Translations under genes and position numbers: made by a program | In this document: positions 2,216 through 43,258 of the stretch, piece by piece | Position numbering within the stretch: position 1 is the stretch's first letter | Layout: every line of letters begins with the position of its first letter | Notes under the pieces: generated by a model | The model's input: the letters and a program-made list of their open reading frames with translations, nothing else | The model's database searches: none | Told to the model about the DNA's origin: nothing | IMG/VR virus record: IMGVR_UViG_3300031507_000011 | Coordinates: 1 to 45,067 of that record | Reading direction: 5' to 3' (one strand) | Length of the DNA: 45,067 bases | Source of the DNA: a virus

Positions 2216-2230
2216 GCGGTGCGTTGCTGG
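2216..2230 (+). promoter_or_regulatory. Late-region repeat element, copy 1
   Basis: GCGGTGCGTTGCTGG, beginning 11 bases after the stop at 2205 and 44 bases before ATG 2260 of the tail tube gene. It is one of six copies in the genome, all on the rightward strand of the late region. The fixed distance to the start codon suggests a phage late promoter or leader element. Confidence 0.6.
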
Positions 2231-2259
2231 CTTGAGGGCCCGCCCGCATCGTCCGGAGC

Positions 2260-3456
2260 ATGCCGGAGTTCCTCAACGCTATCGATATTTGCAATCGGGC
2301 GATGCAGCACCTTGGTGCCAAGCGCATCGATCCGCAGCTCGGTTTCACGGAAATCTCGGTTCAGGCATCGGAATGCGCGTTCGCCTACGGCAAGATCCGG
2401 CAAGCCGAACTGCAGCGCAATGTCTGGACCTTCGCGGTCAAGCGCACCATCCTGCGCCCGGTCAACTCGCTGGCCGTTCAGGGCTCGACCTTCGTCACGA
2501 ACCCGGCCAATTCCTCGATCGCGACGTCGCCGACCATGCTGCTGGCGGTCGCGCTGTATTCCTCGACCACGACCTATCCCTCTAGCGCGCTGGTCACCGA
2601 CGCTGCCGGCACGGTCTGGCAGACGCTGGCGCCGGCCAATCTCAACGCCGCCCCGGGCAATTCCAGCACTTGGGAACTCTACACCGGGCCGCTGACCGTC
2701 GACGCTTGGGTCGCCAACACCAGTTATTACGCCGGTGATCTGGTCTACGTCGCGCCCGGCGATGGCACCTATACGATCTACCAGTCGATCGTCGAGGGCA
2801 ATTCCGACACTCCGGGTACGGCCTCGGCCTATTCCGCGACACAGGTCTATGCCAAGGATGAGGTCGTGACCTCGGCCAGCATCCTCTATCAGTCGCTGGT
2901 CGATCTCAACTATGGCAACACGCCGGTGTCCTCGCCGACACAGTGGACTACCACCATCACATCAGGCTCCGGCTCGGTGAAGTGGCGCACGCTGGCGGCC
3001 GCGCTGCAGCCGATCGTCACGCCCTACCCCCTCGGCACCGGGCCGTCCGGTCAGTCCTCCACCCGCAATGTCTACCGGCTGCCGTGCGGCTTCCTACGTG
3101 AGGCGCCGCAGGACCCGAAGGCTGGCGGGTCCTCCAACATGGGCGCTCCGACCGGCCTCTTCTATACGGACTGGACCTATAGCGGATCCTATCTCGTTTC
3201 GCGTGAAGTGGGCCCGATCGCCTATCGCTTCGTGGCCGACATCACCAACGTGACGGCCATGGACCCGATGTTCTGTGAGGCGCTAGCCGCCAAGATCGCG
3301 TGGGTCGTCTGCGAGCCGGTGACGCAATCGACAGCCAAGCGCGCGGACTGCCTCGCTGCGCACAAGCAAGCGCTGTTCGAAGCCGGCATGGTCAACGCCA
3401 TCGAGCAGGGATCGGTCGAGCCGCCTGTGGACGACCTTATCGCGTGCCGGTTCTAG
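2260..3456 (+). CDS. Tail tubular protein A-like (T7 gp11 family) with inserted carbohydrate-binding-like repeats
   Basis: 398 residues. The N-terminus (EFLNAIDICNRAMQHLGAKRI..LGFTEISVQASECAFAYGKIRQAELQRNVWTFAVKR) is the usual beginning of gatekeeper/tail tubular A proteins, which connect the portal to the tail nozzle. T7 gp11 is about half this length. The extra length is a middle section (residues about 85-240) holding at least two repeats of the type W-x5-Y-x2-GD-x-V...YQS, ending in GNTPVSSPTQW. These resemble the small chitin/cellulose-binding modules of CBM5/12 type. The C-terminal part (MDPMFCEALAAKIAWVVCEPVT) returns to the gp11 pattern. It heads the unit that follows late repeat copy 1. 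Confidence 0.8.
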   Translation: MPEFLNAIDICNRAMQHLGAKRIDPQLGFTEISVQASECAFAYGKIRQAELQRNVWTFAVKRTILRPVNSLAVQGSTFVTNPANSSIATSPTMLLAVALYSSTTTYPSSALVTDAAGTVWQTLAPANLNAAPGNSSTWELYTGPLTVDAWVANTSYYAGDLVYVAPGDGTYTIYQSIVEGNSDTPGTASAYSATQVYAKDEVVTSASILYQSLVDLNYGNTPVSSPTQWTTTITSGSGSVKWRTLAAALQPIVTPYPLGTGPSGQSSTRNVYRLPCGFLREAPQDPKAGGSSNMGAPTGLFYTDWTYSGSYLVSREVGPIAYRFVADITNVTAMDPMFCEALAAKIAWVVCEPVTQSTAKRADCLAAHKQALFEAGMVNAIEQGSVEPPVDDLIACRF

Positions 3457-3459
3457 CCG

Positions 3460-6697: not shown

Positions 6698-8343
6698 TGG
6701 CACAAATCAGCGGCTACGAAGCCCCCCAGAACCTCGGCCTCAACCCGACCGAGATCGGTGTCGATGCGCAAGCCGCAGCCGCGCGCCGGATCGGCGCGTT
6801 CTCCAATCAGAAGGGCGACGCGCTGAACGATACCGGAGCGCGGATCGGCTCGACCGTCAGGGACGTCGGTCAGGTCGCGCTCGACTATATGGAGCATCGC
6901 GAAATCAGCGTAGGCGCGGCCAAGTATGCCGAGGTGCAAAATAATCTCACCCAGAAATGGAACGACATAGCGAAGAATGCCGACCCGAACGACCCGTCGG
7001 TGGCGGCCAAGTTCCGCGAGGAAGTTGCCACTCCAGCGCTTGAACAATTCAGGTCAGGGTTCAATACGGAGCGCGGCCAGCAATTTGCCGAGCAGAAGGT
7101 CGAAAGCCTTCGCCAGCACATGTACGAAAAGACGTCGGCGGACATGTCGACGCTGGCCGGCATCGCGGTGCGCAAGAACATCAACGATTCGACCACGCAC
7201 ATGTCGAATACGGCGATGCTCGATCCGTCGTCGGTGCCGAACCTGCTCAGCCAAGTCGACCACACCATCTCCGGCGTGGTCGGATCGAGCCCGACGCTGT
7301 CGGCCGTGGACGCCGCGCGCGCCACTGGCGAGCTCTCCGACTCGACCAAGAAGGCGATCGTACAGGCCGGCGCGATCGGCGCCATCCAGAAGGCCGGCAA
7401 TCCCGAGGCCACCGCCGACGCATGGATCAAGAAATACCCGGACTATATCAGCGGCGCCGAGGCCAAGACGCTGGCCAGCAATGCGCGACAGCAAATCAGG
7501 GCGCGCAACTACGACTTTGAATCTAACCGGCGCCGCGAGAAGGAAATCACGCAGGACAAGAGCGCCGAGGCGACGCAGCAATATCTGATCGACATCCGAT
7601 CGAAGGACCCGCGCATTGCCGGCGACCCGACTGCGGTCAAGGTGCTGAACGACCCGACGCTGACCAAGACCGACAAGAACAACCTGCTCAATCTGGTCGA
7701 TCGCCAGATGAAGCCGGAGACCGATGCGCGGCTGTCGCAGGAGACCTTTGTCGGCTTGCTGCGCCAGATGCGCGACCCGAACGCGGACCCGGATCAGGTC
7801 ATGCAAAAGGCATGGGATGCCCGCCTGATGGACCCCGGTAAGGCCGGCTCCATGACCGAGCACGATTTCAACCAGTTTCGGGCCGAGGTGGTCGCGCGCA
7901 AGACCCCGGAGGGCGCCGCGCTGGAGCGCGACCGCGCGGGCTTCTTCAAGAACTATGCGGACGCGATTACCGGCGGCAAGGGCATGTACAACCCTGCCCT
8001 GGGCGACCCCAAGGTCTACAATGCCGAGATGGACGCCCGCCGTGTCGAGAACGACCTGCGCAAGAAAGGGCTCGATCCGCATCTGGCCTATGATCCGGCC
8101 TCGCCGTATTTCCTCGGCGATCCAAAGCGCATCTCGAAATGGACGTCGAGCATGCAGCAGGATCTCTCGACCCTGGCCGCGCCGCCGTCGAAGAACCTGA
8201 CCTCCGATGGCAGCAGGATCACCGGCATCGAGAGCAAGCCGCTGCCGCAGATCGAGCGCGATGCCCCGCGCACCGCCGGCCAAACCTACATGACGCCGCA
8301 GGGCATGCTGAAGTGGACCGGCACCGGATGGGTGAAGCCGTGA
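6697..8343 (+). CDS. Internal virion protein, T7 gp15-like position
   Basis: 548 residues, highly charged, predicted helical throughout, with no signal peptide or membrane segment. It begins MAQISGYEAPQNLGLNPTEIGVDAQAAAARRIG. Recurrent Asp-Pro rich loops (RDPNADPDQVMQKAWDARLMDP) separate helices. It lies between a gp14-like and a very large internal protein, as in T7-like phages, so it is probably the middle ejection protein. I see no lysozyme or protease motif. The N-terminal 100 residues (SVRDVGQVALDYMEHREISVGAAKYAEVQNNLTQKW) are typical of podovirus core proteins. Confidence 0.65.
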   Translation: MAQISGYEAPQNLGLNPTEIGVDAQAAAARRIGAFSNQKGDALNDTGARIGSTVRDVGQVALDYMEHREISVGAAKYAEVQNNLTQKWNDIAKNADPNDPSVAAKFREEVATPALEQFRSGFNTERGQQFAEQKVESLRQHMYEKTSADMSTLAGIAVRKNINDSTTHMSNTAMLDPSSVPNLLSQVDHTISGVVGSSPTLSAVDAARATGELSDSTKKAIVQAGAIGAIQKAGNPEATADAWIKKYPDYISGAEAKTLASNARQQIRARNYDFESNRRREKEITQDKSAEATQQYLIDIRSKDPRIAGDPTAVKVLNDPTLTKTDKNNLLNLVDRQMKPETDARLSQETFVGLLRQMRDPNADPDQVMQKAWDARLMDPGKAGSMTEHDFNQFRAEVVARKTPEGAALERDRAGFFKNYADAITGGKGMYNPALGDPKVYNAEMDARRVENDLRKKGLDPHLAYDPASPYFLGDPKRISKWTSSMQQDLSTLAAPPSKNLTSDGSRITGIESKPLPQIERDAPRTAGQTYMTPQGMLKWTGTGWVKP

Positions 8344-11300
8344 CCGAATTGACGGACGATCAGGTCTTTGGCAAGCAGCAGGAGATGAGCGACGATCAGG
8401 TTTTCGGCGACCGAATGCCTGACGCGCTGCAGACCTCGGTGCCCGAGGCGTTCCTCGATCGCGTCCGCGCGGGACAGGCATTGGCCAAGATCACCATGGG
8501 CGCGCTCAAAGGTGCCAAGGAAGGCGCCAGCCAGGGCACGCCGACCGGGTTTGAAGACGAGACACTGAACCACCTGATCGATCTCGGCGTCTTCCACGAT
8601 CCCACGCGCGGCCGTGGCGGGCCTGTCCAGATGGCGAACGAGGCCATGCTGATGCCTGCAGCGCAGTTGTGGCAGACGATCACCCGCGCGACTGCTGGCG
8701 GAATCCATGGCGCCGGTGGCGCGATGGAAGAACTGATCAATGAGTTCGGCGGCTCGCAGGGTACCGCCAACCGCGCCAAGAACGAGGTGATCAACTTCGG
8801 CAACTGGGCTATGATCGAAGGCGGCATGGGTCGGTTCTCGCGGCCGGCCGTGACACCGCAGGGCGTGGCTGATCAGACCATCGGCGGCCTGCCGAAGCCG
8901 GAGGATTTCAGCAACGGCGCGAAGGTGCTGGATGAGCGACCACAAGGTGGCGTAGCTGCTTTAATAGACAAGAAATTATTGAAAGGCCGCCCCGGTGAAA
9001 CACACGCTGATCTTTTAGAACGGAATGGAGTAAAACTTGATGATTTCAATCTGACGCGCGACGACAACGTTGATCTTTTCCATCTGCCCAGTGGTGAGAT
9101 CGTCAATCGCAACGAGATGGCGCGCCGAGGACTGGCCGAAAGCGGCGAGGATTTGCGCGATTTCGGCCTTCAACCTACCGCCGAGCAGATAGCGACTCCC
9201 TTTGAGGAGAGGCTAACACGCCGAGAGGTCATCGAGCAAAATCTACGTCGCATGTGGCGGGAGGACGGTATCCACCCCGCCGAGGCCGTGCACGACGCGC
9301 AGACCGATGCGTTCCTCAAGAATGAGATCACGGCGAAACAGGTCGAGGTGAAGCCCGATCTGACGAACGACGAAAAGGAATTGCTCGGCACTCCGGCATC
9401 CCTATCGGCCGCCGCCACCAATGCGCCGCTGACCTCGCCGCAAGTGCAGCCATTGAACGCGCCCGGACGCCTGACCGCCGCAGCCCGTAAGACGATGGAT
9501 GACATCACCGGGCTTGGCAAAAATATCCAGTACCTGCTCGACCCGATGGCGACGGGATCGAATACCGCCATGGTCATCGCCAAGGACGCCATGAACAGCG
9601 TTCGCCGCATCCGCTGGGATCACGCCCGCTCTGACGCCGATCTGGTCAATCGGTTCGATGACGAATCCTTGTCCCGCATGTGGAATGCGGCAGATGAAGA
9701 AAGCGTCTCCATGCAGCTTGGCGAGCCGGCTGCGATGCGACAGCACCAGGGGCTGGCCACTTTGACTCCGGAGGAGAGCGCGACAGTCGACGCGCTGCAC
9801 ACCCGCGCGCAGGCAGCGTGGCTTCATGCCGTCGATACCGGGATGGTCGAAGGCGAGGGGCTGCCGTCATACACCCCGCGCATGGTCGCGAATGTAGCGC
9901 TGTCGTCTGATTCGATGGGACCGAAGGCGCTAAATGAACTCGGCCGCAACATCTTCACGCGCACATCGCAAATGCTGCACAGGAGCAATCTGGAGGCGCA
10001 GGAGACCGAGGCCGCCGCGCAATCGCTGGTTCGGTCGCAGATGGCAAAACAAGGAGCGACGCCGGAACAGATCACGGCTGCGCTCGAAAAGGTAAAGCTC
10101 GTCCGCAATATCAGAACCTTGCCGCTCGCGACCGCCCGCCTTGAGGAGGCTTCCGTCTGGAAGGACATGATCAACAAGATTGAGATGGTCGGCAAGTCCG
10201 CCGGCAGTGATACGGTCTCGGTCGGCTCGCGCCCAGACAGCTCATGGTTCACGATCGAAGGAAATCCGGCTTTCTCTCAATGGCGGCCGAAATTCGAATA
10301 CAAAAGCGGCACCGAAAATAACCCTGTCGTGAAGGATTCCAACGGAAACGTAGTGTTCGAACGGGTGCCGATCTATATGCACCCGGATTTCAAGGGGCCG
10401 ATGCGGGCGATCCTCGACGAGAGTGTCGACCGCGGCAAGGTCGTGAGCAGCGCGCAATCGCTCTACGGCGCGCTGATGGCGCTCAAAGGCAAGGCGATGA
10501 CGGTCATCCTCAACTCGCCTCTGATCCACAATCAGGTTGTGTGGGGCAAGGTCGCTGAGGCCGCAGGCGGCAAGGAATGGATGGGTTTTGGTCTCTACTA
10601 TCGCGGCAACAAGATCGTGAACGGGACTGCCGGTCGCGCGCAGGAGATGATTGAACGCGGGCTAAATCCGTTCGGCCCGCGAGCCTCGTTACAGGATATC
10701 ACCGGAGAAGCTGAAGGCGTGAATTTTGAGCCGGGCCGGTCACTGACCGCAAAGGCGGCGGCGTTCGTTCCCGGCCTGTTCGATGCCGGTGCCGAGATTG
10801 CGGTCAAGAAGGCGATCGATAAGGCCGGAGATTTCACCCACAACACGCTGCTGTGGGACCGGGTGCGCGATGTGCATTTCGGGCTGGCGGACCTCCTCAG
10901 CGACAAGATGGTGTCCGGTGGCGTCGATCGGCTGATGGCCGACCGGATCGCGACGCACTTCTCGAATATCATCGTCGGATCGATCCCGAAGGAAGCCATG
11001 TCGGCCGGCGCGCGGGCGACCGCCAATCTGTTGCTGTTCTCCCGATCATTCACCCTGGGCAATCTCTCGACCTTCAAGCAGGCCGCCATGGGTCTGCCCA
11101 AACCGATTCTGGCACAGATCGAGCGCGATTTCGGCATGACGATGCAGCAGGCGCTGGCCGGCACGCCAGAGGCCGCCGCGCAGATATCGGACATTTCGCA
11201 GACCGCAAAATCCATCGCGCGCCGCAAGGCCATCTCCACGATCGCGCTCAGTGCTGGGATGTTCTATGTCGGTAATGCCCTGATCCAGCATGCATTCGAT

Positions 11301-12146
11301 GCGATCGTTCGTGACCAAGGCGTCAACGACATCGTCAAGGGTTACGTGCGACGGTTTAATGATGCCGTTGGAGCGATAAAGGAGGACCCCTTCGAACTTC
11401 GGCATCTGCTCGCTCGGCTCAGTCCAACTTGGGATAATGAGCCGTGGAAGCAGGATCGCGCCTATGTCGGGAATACCTCCGATGGAACCGGCATCTATGC
11501 CCGCAACCCCTCCGGCAAGTTCGGCGAGGAAATGACGGGATACGCGACCAAGCCGATGACGATGCTGCGCGGCAAGCTGAGCCCAATGGCGGGCGGATTG
11601 CTTGACGTTTTGACCAACGACGACGGAATCGGCCGGAAGCTCTACAATGAACACGATAGTACCATCAGGGGCGATATCGATACTGCCATGCGGGTCGGAA
11701 AACATCTGATCATGAAGCATCTGCCGGAGGGCCAGATCACGGCGGCCGGCGATCTCCTGCGCGGCGACGGCAATAAGGTCGTCAATACGCTACGGCTGGT
11801 CGGCCCAGCCCTTGGCTTCACGGCCAGTGTTGGCGCTCCGGGCGGTCCACAGCACGGCGAGCAATTGGCTGCGAAGCAGGACTATGAGGCCCGGTTCAGT
11901 CTGGCGTGGCCGAACATCAAGAAGCAGATCCAGCGCGGGGATGAGGCCGGCGCGAGTGCAGCCATGAAGGACATTGGCGTTCCTGCAATGGCTCAAAGAG
12001 GGTTGATGCGCGCCGCCAAGGATCCGGCCGCGTCGCTGCGTGGTCGGACGTTGCTGGATTTCTATCAATACGCCACGCCCGAGCAGAAATTGCGATTTGA
12101 GGGCAAATCCACGCATCCAGGCATTCCGGACATGTCCCAACCCTAG
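8340..12146 (+). CDS. Large internal virion (ejection) protein
   Basis: 1268 residues if GTG 8340, which overlaps the previous stop, is the start; ATG 8328 is the alternative. The length and place match the T7 gp16-class ejection protein. I see no transglycosylase catalytic motif. Residues about 750-1010 contain hydrophobic stretches (AMTVILNSPLIHNQVVWGKV; ATANLLLFSRSFTLGNL; ISTIALSAGMFYVGNALIQ) that could cross the envelope during ejection. A patch at about 8950-9060 is markedly AT-rich, with three TTA codons and an ATA. It encodes RPGETHADLLERNG...HLPSGEIVNRNEMA and looks like a separately acquired module. The downstream half returns to host-like codons. The gene ends exactly where late repeat copy 2 begins. 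Confidence 0.7.
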   Translation: MTELTDDQVFGKQQEMSDDQVFGDRMPDALQTSVPEAFLDRVRAGQALAKITMGALKGAKEGASQGTPTGFEDETLNHLIDLGVFHDPTRGRGGPVQMANEAMLMPAAQLWQTITRATAGGIHGAGGAMEELINEFGGSQGTANRAKNEVINFGNWAMIEGGMGRFSRPAVTPQGVADQTIGGLPKPEDFSNGAKVLDERPQGGVAALIDKKLLKGRPGETHADLLERNGVKLDDFNLTRDDNVDLFHLPSGEIVNRNEMARRGLAESGEDLRDFGLQPTAEQIATPFEERLTRREVIEQNLRRMWREDGIHPAEAVHDAQTDAFLKNEITAKQVEVKPDLTNDEKELLGTPASLSAAATNAPLTSPQVQPLNAPGRLTAAARKTMDDITGLGKNIQYLLDPMATGSNTAMVIAKDAMNSVRRIRWDHARSDADLVNRFDDESLSRMWNAADEESVSMQLGEPAAMRQHQGLATLTPEESATVDALHTRAQAAWLHAVDTGMVEGEGLPSYTPRMVANVALSSDSMGPKALNELGRNIFTRTSQMLHRSNLEAQETEAAAQSLVRSQMAKQGATPEQITAALEKVKLVRNIRTLPLATARLEEASVWKDMINKIEMVGKSAGSDTVSVGSRPDSSWFTIEGNPAFSQWRPKFEYKSGTENNPVVKDSNGNVVFERVPIYMHPDFKGPMRAILDESVDRGKVVSSAQSLYGALMALKGKAMTVILNSPLIHNQVVWGKVAEAAGGKEWMGFGLYYRGNKIVNGTAGRAQEMIERGLNPFGPRASLQDITGEAEGVNFEPGRSLTAKAAAFVPGLFDAGAEIAVKKAIDKAGDFTHNTLLWDRVRDVHFGLADLLSDKMVSGGVDRLMADRIATHFSNIIVGSIPKEAMSAGARATANLLLFSRSFTLGNLSTFKQAAMGLPKPILAQIERDFGMTMQQALAGTPEAAAQISDISQTAKSIARRKAISTIALSAGMFYVGNALIQHAFDAIVRDQGVNDIVKGYVRRFNDAVGAIKEDPFELRHLLARLSPTWDNEPWKQDRAYVGNTSDGTGIYARNPSGKFGEEMTGYATKPMTMLRGKLSPMAGGLLDVLTNDDGIGRKLYNEHDSTIRGDIDTAMRVGKHLIMKHLPEGQITAAGDLLRGDGNKVVNTLRLVGPALGFTASVGAPGGPQHGEQLAAKQDYEARFSLAWPNIKKQIQRGDEAGASAAMKDIGVPAMAQRGLMRAAKDPAASLRGRTLLDFYQYATPEQKLRFEGKSTHPGIPDMSQP

Positions 12147-12160
12147 CGGTGCGTTGCTGG
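12146..12160 (+). promoter_or_regulatory. Late-region repeat element, copy 2
   Basis: GCGGTGCGTTGCTGG; its first G is the last base of the TAG stop of the large internal protein. It lies 42 bases before ATG 12188. The leader between them (ending TCCTCCCGGC) has no purine-rich ribosome site. Confidence 0.6.
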
Positions 12161-12187
12161 AACTGGCCCTTTCGCCATCCTCCCGGC

Positions 12188-13693
12188 ATGAAAACCAGCC
12201 ATCGCTTCCTCGCCGGTTTTGGCCTCGCTGCGGCCGCCGTAGCCATCATGGGGCAGGTCGGCCTCACCACCATGCCGCCGAATACCGTCTTTGGGCGGAT
12301 CGGAGTCGGTGCGTTCGGACCCGGCGGGGCGGTGCCGCTGGCAACCCTGGCGGCCAACCTCGGCATCGGGGTCACCGCTCACTCGGTCCCAATCGGCAAG
12401 GGCTCGACCACCGCCGGATTCAATGCTGCGGCCACGGGCACGTCAGGCGCGGTCCTGATCGATCAGGGCGCTGGCAGCGATCCGGCGTTCCAGCCGATGA
12501 CCGGCTCCTGCTCGCTGGCGGCGAATGGCGCGATCTCGTGTTCAGGCGTCGGCAGCGGCGTCACCTCGGTTACCGCGAACTACACCGTCCTGCCGGGGGA
12601 TTGCCTGAAGACCGTCGCGGCCGGCGGCAATACCCAGTTCACCATCACGGTCAATTCGGCGGCGACCTATGGCGCCTGCCAGCTCGACATCTCCAACGTC
12701 GATACGTTCCCGAGCGGACGCGGCAAGGTCCTTGCCGTCTCTGGCCTGACGACGAATCCGGGTGTGCTCTATCCGGGCATGACCATGACGCTGCTGAACG
12801 TCAATGGCGCGTGGTTCCAGAAGCCAGGAATCAGCATATCGACGGCTCCGGTCGGTACCAAGCTCTATGTCGACGGCGTCAATGGCGATGACAGTCTCAA
12901 TGATTGTCTCGCGACTGCGCAGGCCTGCAAGACGCTTAACCATGTCGTGATGGGCGTCATCTTCAACAATCTGGAGGTGGCAACGGCTGGCTCCGGAACG
13001 GGAACGAATGCCAGCTTCGATGTCCGTTTGATCAACGACGCGGGCTGTGCACCGCTGACCGGCGTCAATTGCATTCACGGACTGCATATGTCCGGTCCTC
13101 CCCGCCGCTCGGAAGGCCACAACTCGATCATGATCGAGTGCGATGGCGGCTCGGCCACGAACTGCACGATCGCCGACAACAGCGGCAATCAGGCGATCGG
13201 ATTGTACTGCGCCTGCTTCCTCGAATTACAGAATGTCACGGTCGCGGGCGGATCTTCCGGCAACAATGCTCTTCAAGCCGAGAAGGGCATGATGCGCTTG
13301 GAGGGTGGCGTCGTCATTGGCAATGCCGGATCGGTCGCGCAGCTCTCTGCGGTCAATGGCGGCACCATCATCCTTGAAGGTGCAAGCACGACGCACGTCT
13401 CGTCGGGCGGCAATTTCTTCGCGCAGGTGTCGAGCGGCGGCAACATCCAGTTAGATCAGGCCACCATCGTCTGGGATCAGGACACGGCCTATTCGCAAAC
13501 CCTGAACGCCAACAACGGCCTGATCAGCGCCACCACCACGACATGGACGACGGGCGGTCACAGCATCACAGCGACCAACAATATCGCATGTTCGCCCGGC
13601 GGCTTCATCGTCACCGGCGGCACCGTCGCCACCGTTCCCGGCACCAACACACCATCAGGATGCGCAAGCAGCGCAAATGGCCAATATGATTAG
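12188..13693 (+). CDS. Tail fibre/spike with beta-helix-like region and signal-peptide-like N-terminus
   Basis: 501 residues from ATG 12188, the start set by its 42-base distance from the repeat element. It opens MKTSHRFLAGFGLAAAAVAIMGQ, which reads as a Sec signal peptide. PPNTVFGRIGVGAFGPGGAVPLATL follows, a motif shared with the second fibre at 14210. A further shared block (YTVLPGDC...VNGAW...YVDGVNGDDSLNDCLATAQACKTL) precedes short Gly/Ser/Asn-rich repeats (ALQAEKGMMRLEGGVVIGNAG, AQVSSGGNIQLDQATIV) typical of right-handed parallel beta-helices. Receptor binding or glycan degradation is inferred. The end is touched by an inserted endonuclease gene. Confidence 0.7.
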   Translation: MKTSHRFLAGFGLAAAAVAIMGQVGLTTMPPNTVFGRIGVGAFGPGGAVPLATLAANLGIGVTAHSVPIGKGSTTAGFNAAATGTSGAVLIDQGAGSDPAFQPMTGSCSLAANGAISCSGVGSGVTSVTANYTVLPGDCLKTVAAGGNTQFTITVNSAATYGACQLDISNVDTFPSGRGKVLAVSGLTTNPGVLYPGMTMTLLNVNGAWFQKPGISISTAPVGTKLYVDGVNGDDSLNDCLATAQACKTLNHVVMGVIFNNLEVATAGSGTGTNASFDVRLINDAGCAPLTGVNCIHGLHMSGPPRRSEGHNSIMIECDGGSATNCTIADNSGNQAIGLYCACFLELQNVTVAGGSSGNNALQAEKGMMRLEGGVVIGNAGSVAQLSAVNGGTIILEGASTTHVSSGGNFFAQVSSGGNIQLDQATIVWDQDTAYSQTLNANNGLISATTTTWTTGGHSITATNNIACSPGGFIVTGGTVATVPGTNTPSGCASSANGQYD

Positions 13694-31370: not shown

Positions 31371-32066
31371 ATGACGCCAGTCTGCGATCTCATCGAGAAA
31401 ATGTTGCTGGAGAATTATCCTCTCGACGCGATCCTGATGGCTGCTCGCGCGCTTGAGACTGTTACGCGTAACAGTGACGTAACCGTTACGCAACCGTTAC
31501 GCAACGTTACGCGGGAGCAGTCTCGCGTCAGAATGATAAACTACAGAAATCGCTTGAAACTTCAACATGTTGCCAAAGCAAACGATGTGGCAACCGAGAC
31601 CGTAACCGTTACGCAACCGTTACGCAACGAGGCTTCTACGCGCGACTTACTTACTTCTTCTCTCTTACTTCCTGAAGACCCCTTGAGGAAAGAAAGCAAG
31701 AGAGAGGTGGTTGCGCGCGCGAGGGGCACGCGGCTCAAGCCCGGCGAGTGGCTGACGCAACCGTTCATCGATGAAGCGATCGCGCTCGGCGTGCCAGCCG
31801 GCCGTGTCGCGTCGCTCTGGGATGAATTCGTGGACTATTGGGCAGCACTGCCAGGGTCACGTGGGACCAAGCTGGATTGGCTCGCCACGTGGCGCAATCG
31901 CATCAGGCAAACCGTATCGAAAGGACAGGGAAATGGAAAAACTTCCCCCGATCACTCCCTTGGCGGGTTCTCGGGACTTGCAGCGAAGCTCCGGCGAAAG
32001 ATCGCTGAAGACGAGGCCGCTGCTGACCAAGATGCCGCCCGTGGCGAACCGTACGACCGACATTGA
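31371..32066 (+). CDS. Replication-type protein with internal direct repeats
   Basis: 231 residues. The N-terminal part (DLIEKMLLENYPLDAILMAARALETVT) precedes two copies of the peptide TVTQPLRN encoded by exact DNA repeats. The C-terminal part (FIDEAIALGVPAGRVASLWDEFVDYWAALPGSRGTKLDWLATWRNRIRQ) is the W..F..YW....G.K..W..TW.NW pattern common at the end of phage replication initiators. The RusA-like neighbour and the iterons inside the gene fit an initiator that carries its own origin, as lambda O does. The role is inferred. Confidence 0.6.
   Translation: MTPVCDLIEKMLLENYPLDAILMAARALETVTRNSDVTVTQPLRNVTREQSRVRMINYRNRLKLQHVAKANDVATETVTVTQPLRNEASTRDLLTSSLLLPEDPLRKESKREVVARARGTRLKPGEWLTQPFIDEAIALGVPAGRVASLWDEFVDYWAALPGSRGTKLDWLATWRNRIRQTVSKGQGNGKTSPDHSLGGFSGLAAKLRRKIAEDEAAADQDAARGEPYDRH
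31461..31629. repeat. Iteron-like repeats, candidate origin of replication
   Basis: The unit CCGTTACGCAA occurs at 31483-31493, 31494-31504, 31606-31616 and 31617-31627, with a partial CGTTACGC at 31505-31512 and a 12-base palindrome GTTACGCGTAAC at 31461-31472. A 29-base stretch at 31478-31506 recurs exactly at 31601-31629, 123 bases (41 codons) apart and in frame. AT-richer DNA lies between and after the blocks (31535-31600, 31645-31700). Confidence 0.55.
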
Positions 32067-32911: not shown

Positions 32912-33024
32912 CCCATTGGCGCCACGCGCGGCAGCACAGCAGCGAGACGGCCCACGCCGTGTTCGGATTCTATCTCGGCCTCACCTTGGGCATCGGCATC
33001 GGATACATCTCGTCATGGCTGTGA
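32908..33024 (+). CDS. Very small membrane protein
   Basis: 38 residues, MTHWRHARQHSSETAHAVFGFYLGLTLGIGIGYISSWL, with one membrane segment (residues 17-38). Its stop overlaps the next start. It may work with the 52-residue membrane protein just upstream. Function unknown. Confidence 0.5.
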   Translation: MTHWRHARQHSSETAHAVFGFYLGLTLGIGIGYISSWL

Positions 33025-33581
33025 ATGATCGCTGGGAGCCGTATCGCGTCATCCTTGACCTCGAGGGGCTGGAGGACGGTATCCTCGATCGCATCGATGA
33101 TCTCGAAACCACCTTCGAACAGATCGAGATGGCGGGCGGGATGGCGCATGGCCAGCTTCAGAAATGCCTGACCAAGAACCCCGGCAAGCGCATCGTCCAG
33201 GCCCGCAACAACCGCCATGCCAGCAACAAGCGCAACTTTGGCTGGGAAAGCCTCGGCAAGGCACTCAAGGGCACCGGCCTGGCGCTGGTGCTGGTGGTCG
33301 ACGACGAGCGGTTCAAGGATACCAAAGAGCAGTTGGTTAGGCGCAAACGGCCACGGCAAAATAGCCATGCTAAGCCCCTTAGCAAACAGGCATTGAACCA
33401 AATGATTGCAGGGGCTTTTGCCACTCATGGTAGGAAGGGCGGACTGCTTCGCTCGGCGCAACTGAGTCCGGCGATGCGACGTAAGATAGCCAAGGCAGCA
33501 GCGAGGATTAGATGGCAAAAAAGATCCCAGAAAAGCGCAGGTTCGCCTGCGGTATTATCGTCAACCAGTTGCCTCCCGTAG
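33015..33581 (+). CDS. Hypothetical basic protein with 3' end altered by the adjacent HNH gene
   Basis: 188 residues from ATG 33015. The N-terminal half is acidic and helical (LDLEGLEDGILDRIDDLETTFEQIEMAGG) followed by AHGQLQKCLTKNPGKRIVQARNNRH. The C-terminal part (KQALNQMIAGAFATHGRKGGLLRSAQLSPAMRRKIAKAAARIRWQK) is a common basic ending in phage proteins, normally finishing soon after the RW. Here it continues for about 20 residues that look random (SAGSPAVLSSTSCLP) and overlap the HNH gene by 70 bases, as if an insertion had replaced the original stop. Confidence 0.55.
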   Translation: MAVNDRWEPYRVILDLEGLEDGILDRIDDLETTFEQIEMAGGMAHGQLQKCLTKNPGKRIVQARNNRHASNKRNFGWESLGKALKGTGLALVLVVDDERFKDTKEQLVRRKRPRQNSHAKPLSKQALNQMIAGAFATHGRKGGLLRSAQLSPAMRRKIAKAAARIRWQKRSQKSAGSPAVLSSTSCLP

Positions 33582-35365: not shown

Positions 35366-35380
35366 GCGGTGCGTTGTTGG
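35366..35380 (+). promoter_or_regulatory. Late-region repeat element, copy 3
   Basis: GCGGTGCGTTGTTGG, 4 bases after the TAG of the GSCFA gene and 43 bases before ATG 35409. No ribosome site is visible before that ATG. It is the leftmost copy in genome order and opens the late region. Confidence 0.6.
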
Positions 35381-35408
35381 ATGGCACAACTGTGTCCAGC
35401 ATCGACGC

Positions 35409-36035
35409 ATGCAATCGCGCAAGCGCTTATCGCCAAATCTCAAGGTCTATTCGACAAAGCAAAAGCCTCGCGGTCGCGCCGGCAAGCGCTCGCCCATGCA
35501 ATTGGTGGCATTGCGCATGGCGGACTTGGCGATATTGTTTCGCAGCCGATATGGCTATGAACTCCCGAACGACGACGCGGGCCGCGATGATTTGGTCGTC
35601 GCGCTCAACCATCTTGCCTGCTTGGCCCATCCTCGAGGCCATATAGCCAATTGGATCGAAATATGGGCCCCGTGGCTCACTGCAGCCGAGCAACGGGACA
35701 TAGTCGCCCCGATCCTTGCCAACCCCACGCGATGGAAGGCCGATGCACTCGCATGGCGCCTCAGATTGACAATGGAGCAGCGAACCATGCTTGGAATCAC
35801 GACAATCGGTGCAATCGACATGAACAAGGGCGCACGCACCAAGCGTCGCAACCAGCGCGATCGCGAGCGTAAGGCCAAGCAGCGACGCGCCAAGGGGATC
35901 AAGCCGCGCAAGGCCTACGAAGCCCAGTCAATCAGTCGGCAGAAGCCATGGGAAGCCGAGGGCATCTCACGCCGCACATGGTATCGACGCCAGAGTGCAC
36001 TTGTGCCACATGGCACAGGTCCGGCTACAGCATAA
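35409..36035 (+). CDS. Putative DNA-binding regulator, candidate late regulator
   Basis: 208 residues from ATG 35409, placed by its 43-base distance from the repeat element. The N-terminus is basic (MQSRKRLSPNLKVYSTKQKPRGRAGKRSP). The middle is RDDLVVALNHLACL...IEIWAPWLTAAEQRDIVAPILANPTRWKADALAWRLRLTMEQRTMLGITTIGAID, and the C-terminus strongly basic with KPWEAEGISRRTWYRRQ, a helix-turn-helix-like ending. This family is frequent in rhizobial genomes and phages, with unknown role. As the first gene behind a late element it is my best candidate for the activator of that element. Confidence 0.6.
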   Translation: MQSRKRLSPNLKVYSTKQKPRGRAGKRSPMQLVALRMADLAILFRSRYGYELPNDDAGRDDLVVALNHLACLAHPRGHIANWIEIWAPWLTAAEQRDIVAPILANPTRWKADALAWRLRLTMEQRTMLGITTIGAIDMNKGARTKRRNQRDRERKAKQRRAKGIKPRKAYEAQSISRQKPWEAEGISRRTWYRRQSALVPHGTGPATA

Positions 36036-36486: not shown

Positions 36487-36501
36487 GCGGTGCGTTGTTT
36501 A
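36487..36501 (+). promoter_or_regulatory. Late-region repeat element, copy 4
   Basis: GCGGTGCGTTGTTTA, 44 bases before ATG 36531 of the TerS-like gene. The last three bases differ from the other copies. It is the only copy far (451 bases) from the previous stop codon. No ribosome site precedes the ATG. Confidence 0.55.
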
Positions 36502-36530
36502 TGGTTTGCCTGACGGTTACTGCCGTTACT

Positions 36531-37037
36531 ATGACGAACGAATTTGAATTTGGCCCGAAAATGCGGGTGCTGACGGAGAAGCAGCGCGCGTTTGTGATGG
36601 CGATGGTCGAGTTCCCGAACCAGACGCATGCGGATGCGGCGCGGATGGCGGGATATTCAGACGCTGGCGATGGGTGCAAGGTCAGGGCCTGTAACCTGTT
36701 GCAGGACAAGCGGATTGTTGAAGCGCTGCAGGAGCAGGCAGGCAAGAAGCTGTGGGCGATTTCGCTGAAGGCGGCGAGCCGGCTCGAGCGGTTGCTGGAC
36801 AGCGAAGACGATGTTGTTGCTTTGCGGGCGACTGGGATGGTGCTGGACCGGGTTGGGCACGCGGCGGCGCAGAACATCAATATCCATCAGCATGTGACGG
36901 ACGAATCCGGCAAGGTGATCCTCGACCGGATCCAGGCATTGTCCGAGAAGCTTGGCGTTCCGGTGAGGCAGTTGCTGGCAAAGCCGGCTGTGCCGGTGGT
37001 TGATGTTGAGTTCTCGGAAGTGGAGATTGAAAAATGA
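36531..37037 (+). CDS. terS: Terminase small subunit
   Basis: 168 residues from ATG 36531, the start set by the distance to the repeat element; GTG/ATG codons further upstream would lengthen it by about 12 residues. RVLTEKQRAFVMAMVEFPNQTHADAARMAGYSDAGDGCKVRACNLLQDKRIVEALQEQAG is the DNA-binding helix-turn-helix of the Terminase_2-like family. The C-terminal part (DRIQALSEKLGVPVRQLLAKPA.PVVDVEFSEVEIE) should contact TerL or the portal. It recognises the packaging site, perhaps in the preceding intergenic region. Confidence 0.85.
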   Translation: MTNEFEFGPKMRVLTEKQRAFVMAMVEFPNQTHADAARMAGYSDAGDGCKVRACNLLQDKRIVEALQEQAGKKLWAISLKAASRLERLLDSEDDVVALRATGMVLDRVGHAAAQNINIHQHVTDESGKVILDRIQALSEKLGVPVRQLLAKPAVPVVDVEFSEVEIEK

Positions 37038-37222
37038 GTTTAGGTGGATTTGATCTTATCGCCGATCTGCGCCTTTTGCTGGATCAGGTACCGATGGTTG
37101 AGCGGCAACGGCAAGTAGTTCTTCAAGCGATAAAGGAGCTTGAACCGATATATGAGGAAAGGCGTCGACTGCGGTTCAGGTCGTCATCGCTCAAATACCT
37201 CAATGATCCCGCTGATGGCTGA
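37034..37222 (+). CDS. Small protein between terminase genes
   Basis: 62 residues, MSLGGFDLIADLRLLLDQVPMVERQRQVVLQAIKELEPIYEERRRLRFRSSSLKYLNDPADG. Helical and amphipathic; its start overlaps TerS (ATGA) and its end overlaps TerL by 8 bases. Similar small helical genes lie between terminase genes in other phages. Function unknown. Confidence 0.5.
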   Translation: MSLGGFDLIADLRLLLDQVPMVERQRQVVLQAIKELEPIYEERRRLRFRSSSLKYLNDPADG

Positions 37223-38669
37223 GCCGTCACTTTCCGAACTTCAGGACATCCTGGCGGGCTTGCAGGCGCTGGACTATCGGCGGACCTTCCAGCAGTTTTT
37301 CGATTTCCAGCCCTATGCGCGGCAGCGTGAGTTCCTGAAGGCGGGGGCTGCGTTCAGCGAGCGGCTGCTGATTGCCGGCAACCAGAACGGCAAGACGCAT
37401 GTCGGGGCCTATGAGGCGGCCTGTCACATGACGGGGCTGTATCCCGATGACTGGCAGGGGCGGCGGTTTGCGAAGCCGACGCGGGGCTGGATCGCCGGCG
37501 AGACCTCGCTTGTGGTGCGGGACGTGCAGCAGAAGAAGCTGTGCGGCGAGCCGGGCGTGGATGCGGCGTTCGGCTCGGGGATGATCCCGAAGGACCTGTT
37601 CACTGACAAACCGTCGATGGCGCGCGGCATTACCGATGCCTATGACACGATCCAGGTCCGGCATGTCTCGGGCGGGGTGTCGGTGGCGCGGTTCAAGTCG
37701 TATGAGCAGGGCCGGCAGAAGTTCCAGGGCGAGACGCTGGACTGGATCTGGTTCGACGAAGAGCCGCCGATGGATATCTATTCGGAGGGGCTGACCAGGA
37801 CCGCGGCGACGCACGGCATCGTGTTCATGACGTTCACGCCGCTGCAGGGCCCGACCGACGTCGTCAACCGCTTCCTTGACGAACCCTCGCCATACCGCAC
37901 AACGATCACGATGACGATCGAGGATGCCGAGCACATCACCCGCGAGGAGAAGGATCGGCTGATCGCGTCGTGGCCGGCGCATGAGCGCGAGGCGCGGGCG
38001 CGCGGCACGCCGATGCTGGGCTCGGGGCGGATCTTCACAGCGCCGGAGGATTCGGTCACCGAGGAGCTGATCAAGTCGGTGCCTGACCACTGGTTCAAGC
38101 TGGGTGGCCTTGATTTTGGCATCGATCACCCGTTCGGCTTCGTGCTCATTCTGTGGGACAAGGACGCCGACGTGATCCACGTCCACCACTGCTACCGCGT
38201 CCGTGACGCGCTGCCGATCCAGCACGCCGACGCGATCAAGAAGGTGGCGGCCGCGGTCCCGGTGGCGTGGCCGGTGGACGGCAATGTGCGCCGCGACGAC
38301 GGCAAGCCGATGGCGGACCACTACAAGCGGCATGGCGTCAAGATGCTGCCGGGACATGCGACCTGGCCCGACGGCTCCGTATCGACCGAGGCCGGCGTGA
38401 TGGAGATCGACGAGCGGGAAAAATCGGGCCGGATCAAATACGCCAGCCATCTGTCCGACCTGCTTGCCGAGCGGCGGATGTATCACCGCAAGGACGGCAA
38501 GATCGTGAAGGTTGGAGATGACCTGCTCTCGGCGCTGCGCACCGCCGTGATGGCAAAGCGGCAAGCCCGCCAAGTCCCGCTCGGACCAAACGGCGGTAGC
38601 GGAACGGGCGGTGGCCCCCGCGCACCCGTAGCCCCCGGCACGGAGTTTGACCTCTTCACGGGTCAGTAG
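37215..38669 (+). CDS. terL: Terminase large subunit
   Basis: 484 residues from ATG 37215 (MAEPSLSELQDIL); ATG 37203 is possible. Walker A is IAGNQNGKT (residues about 53-61), Walker B is LDWIWFDEEPPMD, and the coupling motif is IVFMTFTPLQG. The nuclease domain starts LGGLDFGIDHPFGF with the first catalytic Asp, and VDGNVRRDDGKPM continues it. This is the ATPase and endonuclease that cuts and packages DNA. Nearly identical motif order occurs in podovirus terminases of the Terminase_6 group. Confidence 0.93.
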   Translation: MAEPSLSELQDILAGLQALDYRRTFQQFFDFQPYARQREFLKAGAAFSERLLIAGNQNGKTHVGAYEAACHMTGLYPDDWQGRRFAKPTRGWIAGETSLVVRDVQQKKLCGEPGVDAAFGSGMIPKDLFTDKPSMARGITDAYDTIQVRHVSGGVSVARFKSYEQGRQKFQGETLDWIWFDEEPPMDIYSEGLTRTAATHGIVFMTFTPLQGPTDVVNRFLDEPSPYRTTITMTIEDAEHITREEKDRLIASWPAHEREARARGTPMLGSGRIFTAPEDSVTEELIKSVPDHWFKLGGLDFGIDHPFGFVLILWDKDADVIHVHHCYRVRDALPIQHADAIKKVAAAVPVAWPVDGNVRRDDGKPMADHYKRHGVKMLPGHATWPDGSVSTEAGVMEIDEREKSGRIKYASHLSDLLAERRMYHRKDGKIVKVGDDLLSALRTAVMAKRQARQVPLGPNGGSGTGGGPRAPVAPGTEFDLFTGQ

Positions 38670-38677
38670 TTCCCTCG

Positions 38678-38692
38678 GCGGTGCGTTGCTGG
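38678..38692 (+). promoter_or_regulatory. Late-region repeat element, copy 5
   Basis: GCGGTGCGTTGCTGG, 8 bases after the TerL stop (38669) and 44 bases before ATG 38722. The leader ends in ccttcccggcc, without a ribosome site, closely like the leader of copy 2. Confidence 0.6.
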
Positions 38693-38721
38693 CTGGCCGC
38701 ATCCCGCACACCTTCCCGGCC

Positions 38722-39415: not shown

Positions 39416-39591
39416 TGGCTGAAGTACTCAAGCGCAATCATTACGGACAATTCGACTACCTCAATGATGAGGATTCGAAGGTCTATGCAGAGGTTTGCAA
39501 TAGCAATGATCCAAAGGATCAAAAAATCAAAACACTACTTGAGCGTTTAGCTTCGTCATCGCGCGACGCTCACCGCGCGTCGAGGTATTGA
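39415..39591 (+). CDS. Small AT-rich gene upstream of portal
   Basis: 58 residues, MAEVLKRNHYGQFDYLNDEDSKVYAEVCNSNDPKDQKIKTLLERLASSSRDAHRASRY. The gene is clearly lower in GC than its neighbours (aattcgactacc, aaaaaatcaaaac), which suggests recent gain. It overlaps the previous stop (TGATG) and ends directly against the TTG start of the portal gene. Function unknown. Confidence 0.55.
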   Translation: MAEVLKRNHYGQFDYLNDEDSKVYAEVCNSNDPKDQKIKTLLERLASSSRDAHRASRY

Positions 39592-41370
39592 TTGGCCTAC
39601 GAGCTGACCACCGCCGCCACCGATCCTGCCCCGCCATCACGGCTCGGTCGGCTCGTTTCCGAGCGGGAGTTCAATCTCGTCACGGCAATCCTGCGCGAGT
39701 TCTCACAGTACCAGACGCGCCGAAGCATGTTTGCGATGCAATGGGAAGAGGTAGCCCAGCTCATCCTGCCGACGGCGCGCAACACATTCTTCTATCAGAG
39801 CTACAACACGCCTGGCCTGAAGAAGACCCAGCAGCAGGTCGATGCCACGGGCGCACTGGCGCTGCATCGTTTTTGCGCCATCGCCGATTCGCTGGTGACG
39901 CCGCGCAACATGCAATGGCACGGCCTGTCCTGCGACGACTATATCAAAAAGGACATCGCGGTCAGGCTATGGCTGGAGAGCATGGCGCGGAAACTGTTCA
40001 AGATGCGCTACGCGGCGCGCGCCAACTTCGCGGCCTCGAACTACAAGAACTGGCAATCGACCGGCGCGTTCGGCAACGCCACCATGTATACCGATGCCTA
40101 TGACGACCGCTGGCATGGCGGCGGCCGCGGCCTGCGCTACAAGTCGGTGCCGCTCGGCGAGACATTCTTCGGCGAGAACCATCAGGGCCAGGTCGATCGC
40201 ATGATCCGCTGGTTCCGCCTGACGCCGTATCAGGCCGTGCAGAAGTGGGGCCGCGAGTGGCTGCCTGACGCGCTGGTCGCGCCGCTGCAGCAGGACAGCC
40301 AATGGCGCTACAACTTCCTGCATTGCGTCCGGCCGCGCGATCTCGGCGAGTACGATCCCAGTGCGTTCGACCATCGTTCGATGCCGTTCTCATCCTATTA
40401 CGTCTCGATCGAGGGCCGCTGCCTGATGGCCCCTGAGAGTGGCTATCGCACCTTCCCGTTCGCAGTCAGCCGCTACGAGCAGGCGCCGGACGAGGTCGAG
40501 GGCAGGGGACCGGCCCAGATCGTGCTGCCCGGCCTGAAGACCCTGAACGCCGAGAAATCGATCTTCCTGAAGACCGGCCACCGCGGCGCCGATCCGGTGC
40601 TCTTGATCGCCGACGACGGGCTGGTGGGCATGGATCTGCGGCCCGGCGCGCAGAACAAGGGCGGCGTCACCGCAGACGGCAAGCCGCTGGTGCATATCCT
40701 GCCGACCGGCGACATCAAGATCACGCTGGAGATGATGCAGGAGGAGCGCGGCATCATCGACGACACGTTCCTTGTCTCGCTGTTCAAGGTCCTCTCGGAA
40801 AATCCGAACATGACCGCGACGCAGGTGGTGGCGCTGGTCGCCGAAAAGGGCATGCTGGTGGCGCCGACCTTGGGGCGGCAGCACACCGAATATGTAGGCT
40901 CCGGCCTCGTTCCGCGCGAGATCGACGTGCTGTTCGAGCTCGGGCTGATCGATCCGCCGCCGCCACGACTGATCGAGGCCGCAGGCAATTCAAGGCGCAA
41001 CCTGCTGTCGCTGATCGAGGTCACCGATACCTCGCCGCTGTCGAAGGCGGCGCAGATGGGCGAGGCGGCCGGCTTCAACCAGTGGATCGAGAACCTGACC
41101 AAGGTCGCCTCGGAAATGCAGGATCCGAGCTGGCTCGATGGTGTCAACTCAGACGCGGCCTCGGCCGACCTCGCCGACATCTATAGCGTGCGGGAGAGCT
41201 GGAAGGCGACCCCGGACCAGATCGCGCAGAAGCGCAAGGCGCGCGCCGGCGCCCAGCAGCAACAGGCCCGGATCGCCGCGATGCCGGGTGAGGCAGCGAT
41301 GCTCAACGCCCAGTCCAAGGCGCAGGCCAACCCGGCCGCGCTGCCGCAACAGCAGGGGGCGCCCGCATGA
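39592..41370 (+). CDS. Portal (head-tail connector) protein
   Basis: 592 residues from TTG 39592, the first codon after the previous stop. FNLVTAILREFSQYQTRRSMFAMQWEEVAQLILPTARNTFF, LALHRFCAIADSLVTPRNMQWHGL and the GEGWGR-like GREWLPDALVAP, together with LPGLKTLNAEKSIFLKTG.. and GRQHTEYVGSGLVPREIDVLFELG, are the features of the T7 gp8-type Head-tail_con family. The 12-subunit ring forms the DNA gate of the capsid. The Ala/Gln-rich C-terminus (QQQARIAAMPGEAAMLNAQSKAQANPA) faces the capsid interior. It overlaps the next gene by four bases. Confidence 0.92.
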   Translation: MAYELTTAATDPAPPSRLGRLVSEREFNLVTAILREFSQYQTRRSMFAMQWEEVAQLILPTARNTFFYQSYNTPGLKKTQQQVDATGALALHRFCAIADSLVTPRNMQWHGLSCDDYIKKDIAVRLWLESMARKLFKMRYAARANFAASNYKNWQSTGAFGNATMYTDAYDDRWHGGGRGLRYKSVPLGETFFGENHQGQVDRMIRWFRLTPYQAVQKWGREWLPDALVAPLQQDSQWRYNFLHCVRPRDLGEYDPSAFDHRSMPFSSYYVSIEGRCLMAPESGYRTFPFAVSRYEQAPDEVEGRGPAQIVLPGLKTLNAEKSIFLKTGHRGADPVLLIADDGLVGMDLRPGAQNKGGVTADGKPLVHILPTGDIKITLEMMQEERGIIDDTFLVSLFKVLSENPNMTATQVVALVAEKGMLVAPTLGRQHTEYVGSGLVPREIDVLFELGLIDPPPPRLIEAAGNSRRNLLSLIEVTDTSPLSKAAQMGEAAGFNQWIENLTKVASEMQDPSWLDGVNSDAASADLADIYSVRESWKATPDQIAQKRKARAGAQQQQARIAAMPGEAAMLNAQSKAQANPAALPQQQGAPA

Positions 41371-41663
41371 CCCCCGAACAGGCGCTGGCTGTCTTCGATG
41401 ACTGCAAGCGCGCCTACATTCTCACCTTCGGCACGGATGCCGGTCGCACCGTGCTTGCCGACCTAGCCAAATTCTGCCGCGCCAATCAGAGCACGGCAGT
41501 AGCCGGAGATCACGACCGCACCTGGGCCCTGATCGGCCGGCGCGAGGTCTATCTGACGATCCGTGACTATCTCGACCTGACACCGGAGCAACTGGTGGCC
41601 AGATTTACCAGGCCCGCGCAAGGAGCGATAAGCCATGACGACCGAACTACCCCTCCCGACTGA
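41367..41663 (+). CDS. Bbp19-like protein
   Basis: 98 residues, MTPEQALAVFDDCKRAYILTFGTDAGRTVLADLAKFCRANQSTAV...HDRTWALIGRREVYLTIRDYLDLTPEQLVARF. The F.T..GR.VL.DLA.F pattern and the late GRREV...I match the Bbp19-like domain coded between portal and scaffold in BPP-1-like podoviruses. Its place here is the same. Molecular role unknown. Confidence 0.75.
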   Translation: MTPEQALAVFDDCKRAYILTFGTDAGRTVLADLAKFCRANQSTAVAGDHDRTWALIGRREVYLTIRDYLDLTPEQLVARFTRPAQGAISHDDRTTPPD

Positions 41664-42540: not shown

Positions 42541-42544
42541 GAGC

Positions 42545-42886
42545 ATGGACATGACCGAGATCCAGATCATCGAAGACGAAGACGAGAAGCCCGCCCGGCC
42601 CGCCCGCAAGCCAATGAAGAAGAAGGCCAGGAGGAAGGTCAGGGCTGCCCCGGCAGCCCTGAAGCGCACCCCGGCGCCAGCCGGCTCGCCGCTTGCCGGC
42701 CTCACCGCGCTCGACTGCGCCTCGGGCTGCAAGGTCGGCTGCTGCGCCATCTCCGGCGTCGGCATCTGCGCGCATCCGGCCAAGGGCGGCTTGCAGGCCA
42801 GTCTGCAGAACGACAAGAGCATGCGGATGTACAATCAGGCCAAGCAGATCATCGCCGGCCTCAAGCTGAAGATAGGTGAGACATGA
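42545..42886 (+). CDS. Small Lys-rich, Cys-containing protein
   Basis: 113 residues. The N-terminal 45 are acidic, then very basic (ARPARKPMKKKARRKVRAA). Residues about 55-80 contain ALDCASGCKVGCCAISGVGICAHPAKGG, with five Cys that could bind metal or stabilise a fold. The C-terminal helix is MRMYNQAKQIIAGLKLKIGE. Function unknown. Confidence 0.55.
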   Translation: MDMTEIQIIEDEDEKPARPARKPMKKKARRKVRAAPAALKRTPAPAGSPLAGLTALDCASGCKVGCCAISGVGICAHPAKGGLQASLQNDKSMRMYNQAKQIIAGLKLKIGET

Positions 42887-43065
42887 GACTGGAGCTGCGC
42901 CGCGACATCGGCGGCACCCATTTCGTGATCTGCCTGATCGGCGAGCGCCGCAGCGGTGATGCCATCGCAGTGCCGCTGTCGCCAGACCTAAGCAACCGGA
43001 TTGAGACAATGCTGCTACTGGAGGGTATCCAGACCGAACTTCCGGTATTCGAAAGGAGTGGATAA
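42883..43065 (+). CDS. Small protein of head module
   Basis: 60 residues, MRLELRRDIGGTHFVICLIGERRSGDAIAVPLSPDLSNRIETMLLLEGIQTELPVFERSG. A small beta-rich protein overlapping both neighbours (ATGA before, TAATG after). No family recognised. Confidence 0.55.
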   Translation: MRLELRRDIGGTHFVICLIGERRSGDAIAVPLSPDLSNRIETMLLLEGIQTELPVFERSG

Positions 43066-43244
43066 TGCCTAGCGTTTCACAGGCCCAACACGGCATGGCC
43101 ATGATGTCCCGCACCGCCGCCGGTCGCGCCAAGCTCCGCGCGCACGGCAAAAAGCCGATGCCGATGAGTGCGGCGAACGACTTTATGGCTGCCGACAAGG
43201 GCCGAAAAATTGGCAAGCTGGCGCGGCACGTGAAGAAGAAATAG
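43065..43244 (+). CDS. Small basic protein (DUF3008-like)
   Basis: 59 residues, MPSVSQAQHGMAMMSRTAAGRAKLRAHGKKPMPMSAANDFMAADKGRKIGKLARHVKKK. The pattern MP.VS.AQ...M......G.......PM..A..F..ADKGR is that of small basic phage proteins related to DUF3008. It has an aaaggag ribosome site (43051-43057) and ends exactly at late repeat copy 6. Confidence 0.65.
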   Translation: MPSVSQAQHGMAMMSRTAAGRAKLRAHGKKPMPMSAANDFMAADKGRKIGKLARHVKKK

Positions 43245-43258
43245 CGGTGCGTTGATCC
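43244..43258 (+). promoter_or_regulatory. Late-region repeat element, copy 6
   Basis: GCGGTGCGTTGATCC. Its first G is the last base of the previous TAG, exactly as in copy 2; the final four bases diverge. The capsid start is 258 bases away, unlike the 42-44 of the other copies, so a long leader lies between. Confidence 0.55.

Follow-up and report, generated by a model that had tools for sequence, protein, structure and literature searches.

The repeated element in the late DNA of the window, which is an entire IMG/VR record of 45,067 bp, is very probably the upstream of the two boxes that make up a bipartite late promoter. We consider it the more probable reading, with moderate confidence, that these promoters are used by host RNA polymerase, are activated by an HTH protein of the phage and give rise to leaderless mRNAs. 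How the promoter is built and spaced, how it is conserved and varies in dialect, and how it co-occurs and covaries with the HTH gene are results of computation. The genome in the window is of a podophage-like, temperate type with integrase, RecE/RecT, terminase, portal and capsid genes, and it is laid out as a leftward early block flanked by rightward genes.

The first-pass annotation had reported six copies of a 15-base element, all rightward, as a probable phage-specific late promoter or leader. All six of its coordinates were correct, as the exact 11-mer GCGGTGCGTTG is found at 2216, 12146, 35366, 36487, 38678 and 43244, and the orientation held as well, since every copy is on the + (late) strand and the − strand has no copy. 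The length of the element had to be revised. The 15-mer GCGGTGCGTTGYTGG is complete at 2216, 12146, 35366 and 38678 but differs at 36487 (2 mismatches) and 43244 (3 mismatches), and the common part is therefore 11 bases. When up to three mismatches were allowed, the 15-mer showed no excess in the window (9 occurrences versus 5.2 ± 2.5 by chance). By an order-3 Markov model, the 6 copies of CGGTGCGTTG compare with 0.06 expected; it is the top over-represented word of the + strand. GGTGCGTTG is expected 0.15 times in the window. The distances from element to next ATG (44, 42, 43, 44 and 44) and the relations of the copies to stop codons were confirmed against the sequence and the ORF lists. An Rfam search with the element returned no match. 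A coding N-terminal extension (GTG CGT TGC TGG) was rejected because the frame to the ATG varies (distances 41, 39, 40, 41 and 41).

The alignment of sites picked only by the element, hereafter box 1 or (C)GGTGCGTTG(C/T)TGG, revealed a second conserved block approximately 28 bp downstream; the invariance of the box 1 core in this set arises in part by selection. Box 2 reads CAnnTT(CC). The first-pass view that a conserved −10 box is lacking downstream proved wrong, for the aligned relatives show a degenerate −10 at the canonical spacing of 17 bp, with A-11 in 38 of 43 sites and T-7 in 41 of 43 when a small shift is allowed. At least five of the six fixed box 2 bases were matched in 89 of 190 sites versus 2.2% of random positions. 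The spacer from TTGYTG to CAnnTT was 17 bp in 56 sites, 16 bp in 17, 18 bp in 15 and 19 bp in one. In the whole collection, the box pair occurred at the promoter spacing in 48 IMG/VR stretches and in 2 when the spacing was increased by 10 bp as a control. Features of the sigma-70 type are thus present in the 17 ± 1 bp between the boxes and in a −10 with A-11 and T-7. The match to the consensus TTGACA and TATAAT is poor, with only TTGYTG and CAnnTT in their places, and from this we infer that the promoters depend on an activator. A sigma-54 promoter, with GG/GC doublets about 10 bp apart at −24/−12, does not agree with the distance of about 28 bp between the conserved boxes. Box 1 itself is asymmetric and contains no palindrome. 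The designation as a phage-specific late promoter is well supported by the fixed spacing to the −10-like box, the strand bias, the orthologous late genes downstream and the concerted dialects described below.

All six promoters of the window lie on the + strand. Late promoter 1 (2216–2259) consists of box 1 GCGGTGCGTTGCTGG at 2216–2230, including TTGCTG at 2224–2229, and the −10-like CATCGT at 2247–2252; its predicted +1 is at or adjacent to ATG 2260 of a tail protein gene (phrog_394). Late promoter 2 (12146–12187; box 1 at 12146–12160, CATCCT at 12176–12181) has its predicted +1 at ATG 12188 of a 501-aa protein whose family was not recognised, and late promoter 3 (35366–35408; box 1 at 35366–35380, CAGCAT at 35397–35402) at ATG 35409 of the gene for a 208-aa protein (35409–36035, +). 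Late promoter 4 (36487–36530) combines an 11-mer box 1 (36487–36497) with a weak −10-like TACTGC (36518–36523) and presumably drives the terminase small subunit gene terS (36531–37037, +), which starts at ATG 36531 and is followed by the large subunit gene (37140–38669, +). Late promoter 5 (38678–38721; box 1 at 38678–38692, CACCTT at 38709–38714) has its predicted +1 at or adjacent to ATG 38722 of a 78-aa gene conserved ahead of the gene for the portal (head-tail adaptor, phrog_332; 39592–41370, +). Late promoter 6 (43244–43290), that of the capsid operon, has an 11-mer box 1 (43244–43254) and CATGTT at 43275–43280. It has no ATG at +1, as ATG 43276 falls within the −10-like box; the gene of the major capsid protein (phrog_3437; 43502–44455, +) begins more than 200 nt past the promoter and has a leader, and the same is seen in relatives.

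Several late proteins of the window (starts at 12188, 14210 and 17087) have hydrophobic N-termini that resemble signal peptides, and in relatives the corresponding proteins encoded behind the same promoter share this feature. The terS promoters carry added GTTAC elements: a GTAAC-n-GTTAC element is seen at 36510–36530 of the window and in G002, G008, G028, G039 and others, and it may couple packaging to replication or serve an additional regulator. The element in the terS promoter of G028, GTAACCGTTACG, is the same as the putative iterons of the window. The latter are AACCGTTACGC repeats at 31481–31629, arranged as two tandem pairs with 123 bp between the pairs, within a replication-initiation-like gene (31371–32066), and they look like origin iterons.

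The position of the start codons suggests that most of these promoters produce leaderless transcripts. Among 137 sites, the offset from T-7 to ATG peaked at 7 nt (30 sites) and 8 nt (25 sites), with about 2 sites at each other offset. Since transcription normally begins at this distance past a −10 box, the transcript should open at the start codon. The element would then lie upstream of the RNA, and the suggestion that it acts at the RNA level is disfavoured for this reason. An SD-like motif preceded 1 of 64 such ATGs, whereas among the remaining 466 gene starts 151 had one (Fisher p = 4e-9); leaderless mRNA would account for the missing Shine-Dalgarno sequences. Most ATGs in the leaderless position open long reading frames, and the N-termini of the tail protein orthologues (M-x-[AE]-[FY]-x-x-x-x-D-I) start precisely at such an ATG. 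Five of the six copies in the window have this geometry, the one with a leader being that of the capsid gene, and in the whole set many sites have no start codon at +1. We regard leaderless late starts as a highly likely prediction. The searched library contained no paper on this motif, and as far as it shows, a leaderless start consistent across a late regulon was previously undescribed.

To examine the recurrence of the motif, we used 67 IMG/VR loci found via the portal protein of the window. The data are almost wholly metagenomic contigs and the relatives are not phylogenetically independent. The late strands of the relatives carry the same word: GGTGCGTTG has 6 late-strand copies in the window and 6, 6, 3, 6, 8, 6 and 5 in G001, G002, G003, G004, G020, G011 and G017, respectively, versus 0–1 on the opposite strand of these eight genomes and an expectation below 0.5. 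Word counts made without prior knowledge of the motif recovered variants in relatives that lack the exact word. These include GAGTGCGTTG as well as GAGTGCGTTGCTGG in G009, GGTACGTTGCTGT in G007, GTGCGTTGTT in G005 and CGTGCGTTGC in L029; no promoter-like word was recovered in the motif-less relatives G013, G016 and G019. The sites precede orthologous genes, namely those for the terminase small subunit, the small pre-portal protein, the capsid and the first tail protein, and a further site recurs ahead of the gene that follows the large internal virion protein. The motif also occurs, along with the HTH gene, in the podophage G029, whose capsid is of another family (phrog_212). Its carriers are dozens of soil phages, whose hosts are probably Bradyrhizobium-like bacteria. 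A portal search of GTDB genomes found no host prophages.

One carrier is NZ_CP094518.1 (L307), a circular record of 46.6 kb from Bradyrhizobium sp. ISRA432 that was deposited as a plasmid. Its integrase, S24-type repressor, portal and capsid genes are those of a temperate phage genome, and it is possibly a phage-plasmid or an assembled phage. It contains six copies of GTGCGTTGCG, all on the + strand, and this is its most over-represented word. One of them, in the GTGCGTTGCGG element, is in the leaderless position 40 nt ahead of the annotated start at 1692. The capsid protein of the window has no match in this record.

Additional elements were seen in some relatives. A non-coding stretch, CATCGCGCGTCC...GCGAGGACCACGACGAAG, is conserved between the HTH gene and terS, mostly after an extra promoter copy (in oriented contigs at G026 45031, G037 22737, G039 14049, G040 about 8464 and L307 26177), and might represent a cos site or encode a small RNA. 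In a minority, one motif copy ahead of terS points leftward (G002 30128, G027 23122, G037 22673, G026 44977 and G039 13972). Some of these are 55–80 bp from a rightward copy, which makes a divergent late promoter possible. A word unlike this motif, TCCAGCAATAATCTTGCG, has 8–9 copies mostly on one strand in G018 (the IMG/VR contig of L042) and is possibly another phage-specific element.

The sequence of box 1 varies among phages in a concerted manner. Copies differ by 2.64 mismatches within a phage versus 3.65 between phages (permutation p = 0.0005). Dialects that are alike within a phage and unlike between phages suit a reader encoded by the phage, and the comparison points to a phage protein as the reader of box 1. 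Among 14 genomes, the dialect distance also tracked the distance between HTH proteins when portal distance was controlled for (partial Mantel r = 0.43, p = 0.0003), with the portal as the only control, so that other linked early genes could yield the same signal.

The candidate reader is a previously undescribed protein of 188 aa (33015–33581, +), of putative XRE/HipB-like HTH type, whose gene is among the last of the right early region and precedes the late region. When the ORFs of ten motif-bearing genomes were clustered, many structural clusters were obtained and one non-structural cluster, that of the HTH gene, which was present in 7 of the 10, always rightward and shortly before terS; it was missing from G004 and G007, where the contigs are truncated, and from G017. 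An HMM also found the gene in contigs that had been retrieved by the DNA motif alone (G026–G031, G034, G037, G039, G040 and G041). Of the contigs that span the early/late junction, 18 of 19 with the motif have the HTH gene versus 1 of 4 without it (Fisher p = 0.009), a count that includes some near-duplicate contigs. The homologue in NZ_CP094518.1 is WP_280970212.1. No convincing family match for the protein was found in Pfam, PHROG or NCBIfam, and no convincing homologue among GenBank phages. Its AlphaFold model is a helical bundle (pLDDT 79), and the best Foldseek matches were HipB and the controller protein C.Esp1396I at a probability of about 1. As their E-values were weak (0.1 at best), the fold assignment rests on this probability and the target TM-score. 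Exceptions occur in both directions. In G017 the motif is present but no HTH homologue was detected, although its ORF at 8025–8885 resembles, by eye, a different XRE-type protein, and L028 has a diverged HTH protein without the motif. Judged from gene content and covariation, the HTH protein is likely to be the reader of box 1, and should it be so, activation is strongly to be expected over repression.

Other potential readers had a narrower distribution. The GcrA-like protein (PF07750; 30499–30969, +) and the 208-aa protein had both been proposed by the first-pass annotation; the former is missing from most motif-bearing relatives (G001, G002, G008, G009, G011 and G020) and the latter is present in few relatives only. 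The small LuxR-type HTH protein of NZ_CP094518.1 was dismissed, as it occurs in only two contigs. A phage sigma factor was likewise rejected, since sigma region 2 (PF04542) had no match in 15 genomes while control genomes were positive.

We propose a mechanism in which the transcription start, the sigma factor, the binding of the HTH protein and its activating role are inferred. The promoter has the form (C)GGTGCGTTGYTGG, a gap of about 15 bp and then sCAnnTTCC, where TTGYTG serves as the −35 and CAnnTT as the −10 with a spacer of 17 ± 1 bp. The XRE/HipB-like activator would bind GGTGCG(TTG), over and just upstream of the −35, and recruit the RNA polymerase of the host, carrying the main sigma factor, to promoters that are otherwise weak. 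Transcription would begin at the A of the ATG, 7–8 nt past T-7, and the first gene of most late operons would be translated off a leaderless mRNA. In this manner the promoter set may switch on the structural genes.

The same leaderless promoters might instead be read by another phage protein or by an alternative host sigma factor or activator, with the HTH gene a mere linked neighbour. We consider this unlikely but far from negligible. The G017 and L028 exceptions fit such a reader, and because the HTH gene is tied to the early/late junction in all contigs, linkage alone could give the co-occurrence. Against it, the HTH gene alone among the non-structural clusters recurs in nearly every motif-bearing genome, the early regions being otherwise mosaic. 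The dialects covary with the HTH protein, agreeing within a phage and differing between phages, and neither a universal GcrA or LuxR-type HTH protein nor a sigma region 2 is at hand as a substitute. Another explanation keeps the HTH protein as a repressor, with box 1 as an operator overlapping the −35 and host polymerase acting unaided once the repressor is gone. Box 1 does span the −35 region, and repression is a common role of XRE/HipB-like proteins. However, the −10 and −35 are poor fits to the sigma-70 consensus, as in activator-dependent promoters, the HTH gene is within the rightward and presumably lytic early region, and box 1 is asymmetric and has no palindrome; repression is improbable.

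The fixed distance to the start codon and the absent Shine-Dalgarno sequences could also be explained by an element that works in RNA, as a leader or a translation enhancer like a start-associated sequence. This appears very improbable, as the element is coupled to a −10-like box at promoter spacing, the fold of the 48-nt region is not unusual (mean z −0.8), Rfam holds no match and the capsid copy retains both boxes with its start codon more than 200 nt away. Reading by a T7-type or other phage RNA polymerase is more doubtful still. T7-like promoters do show phage-specific dialects similar to those seen here, but they are compact, whereas the boxes here, together with the conserved gap between them, extend over about 36 bp; PF00940 had no match in 15 genomes, a search in which the control genomes were equally silent. 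We give least credence to the view that the copies serve at the borders of modules as linkers for recombination or as packaging sites. They do sit where genes meet, and many overlap stop codons, yet recombination leaves their single orientation, the second box at a fixed spacing and the fixed place of the start codon unexplained.

It appears slightly better than an even chance that activation of the bipartite promoters by the HTH protein represents a new regulatory pair across structural lineages of alphaproteobacterial temperate phages, one that joins an undescribed XRE-like activator family and a bipartite promoter in a mostly leaderless late regulon with coevolving dialects. For phages of Bradyrhizobium-like soil bacteria, late regulation is with few exceptions undescribed, and the promoter together with its candidate activator provides operon maps for dozens of uncultivated phages. 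The dialects form a natural set of protein-DNA specificity variants. Leaderless mRNAs are usually considered inefficient in model bacteria. Should the 5′ ends coincide with the ATGs, abundant virion proteins would be translated from leaderless mRNAs, and efficient leaderless translation would be directly testable in one phage.

In P2 (Ogr), Mu (C) and Gram-positive phages (RinA/ArpU), an early phage protein activates dispersed late promoters that are read by host polymerase. The promoters described here resemble these in having a predicted activator site upstream of or at the −35 and a poor core promoter. They differ in that the HTH protein of the window is not in those families by Pfam, that box 1 is not the P2 palindrome and that most starts are predicted to be leaderless. 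The predicted binding of a lambda-repressor-like HTH over the −35 is reminiscent of lambda CII and class II activators; unlike for CII, there is no TTGC-N6-TTGC repeat, the promoters are late rather than lysogeny promoters and no sequence similarity was shown. Cluster K mycobacteriophages have start-associated sequences (PMC3203893), which share with our element a conserved repeated motif just ahead of start codons, but the motif here is promoter-like, bipartite and upstream of the predicted RNA start. According to a review-like remark, phages often make leaderless transcripts (PMC5312081), and alphaproteobacteria make AUG-initial leaderless mRNAs, of which 171 are reported in Sinorhizobium meliloti (PMC3616915). 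In contrast to the present case, the leaderless genes of such hosts are not coordinated as one regulon under a phage-specific promoter. Single leaderless promoters are known from phages, as in PL1/PR2 of Cluster O mycobacteriophages (PMC4351075). While these and lambda PRM involve one or two promoters, the leaderless geometry here extends to a whole late regulon of about 5–8 promoters with one shared motif.
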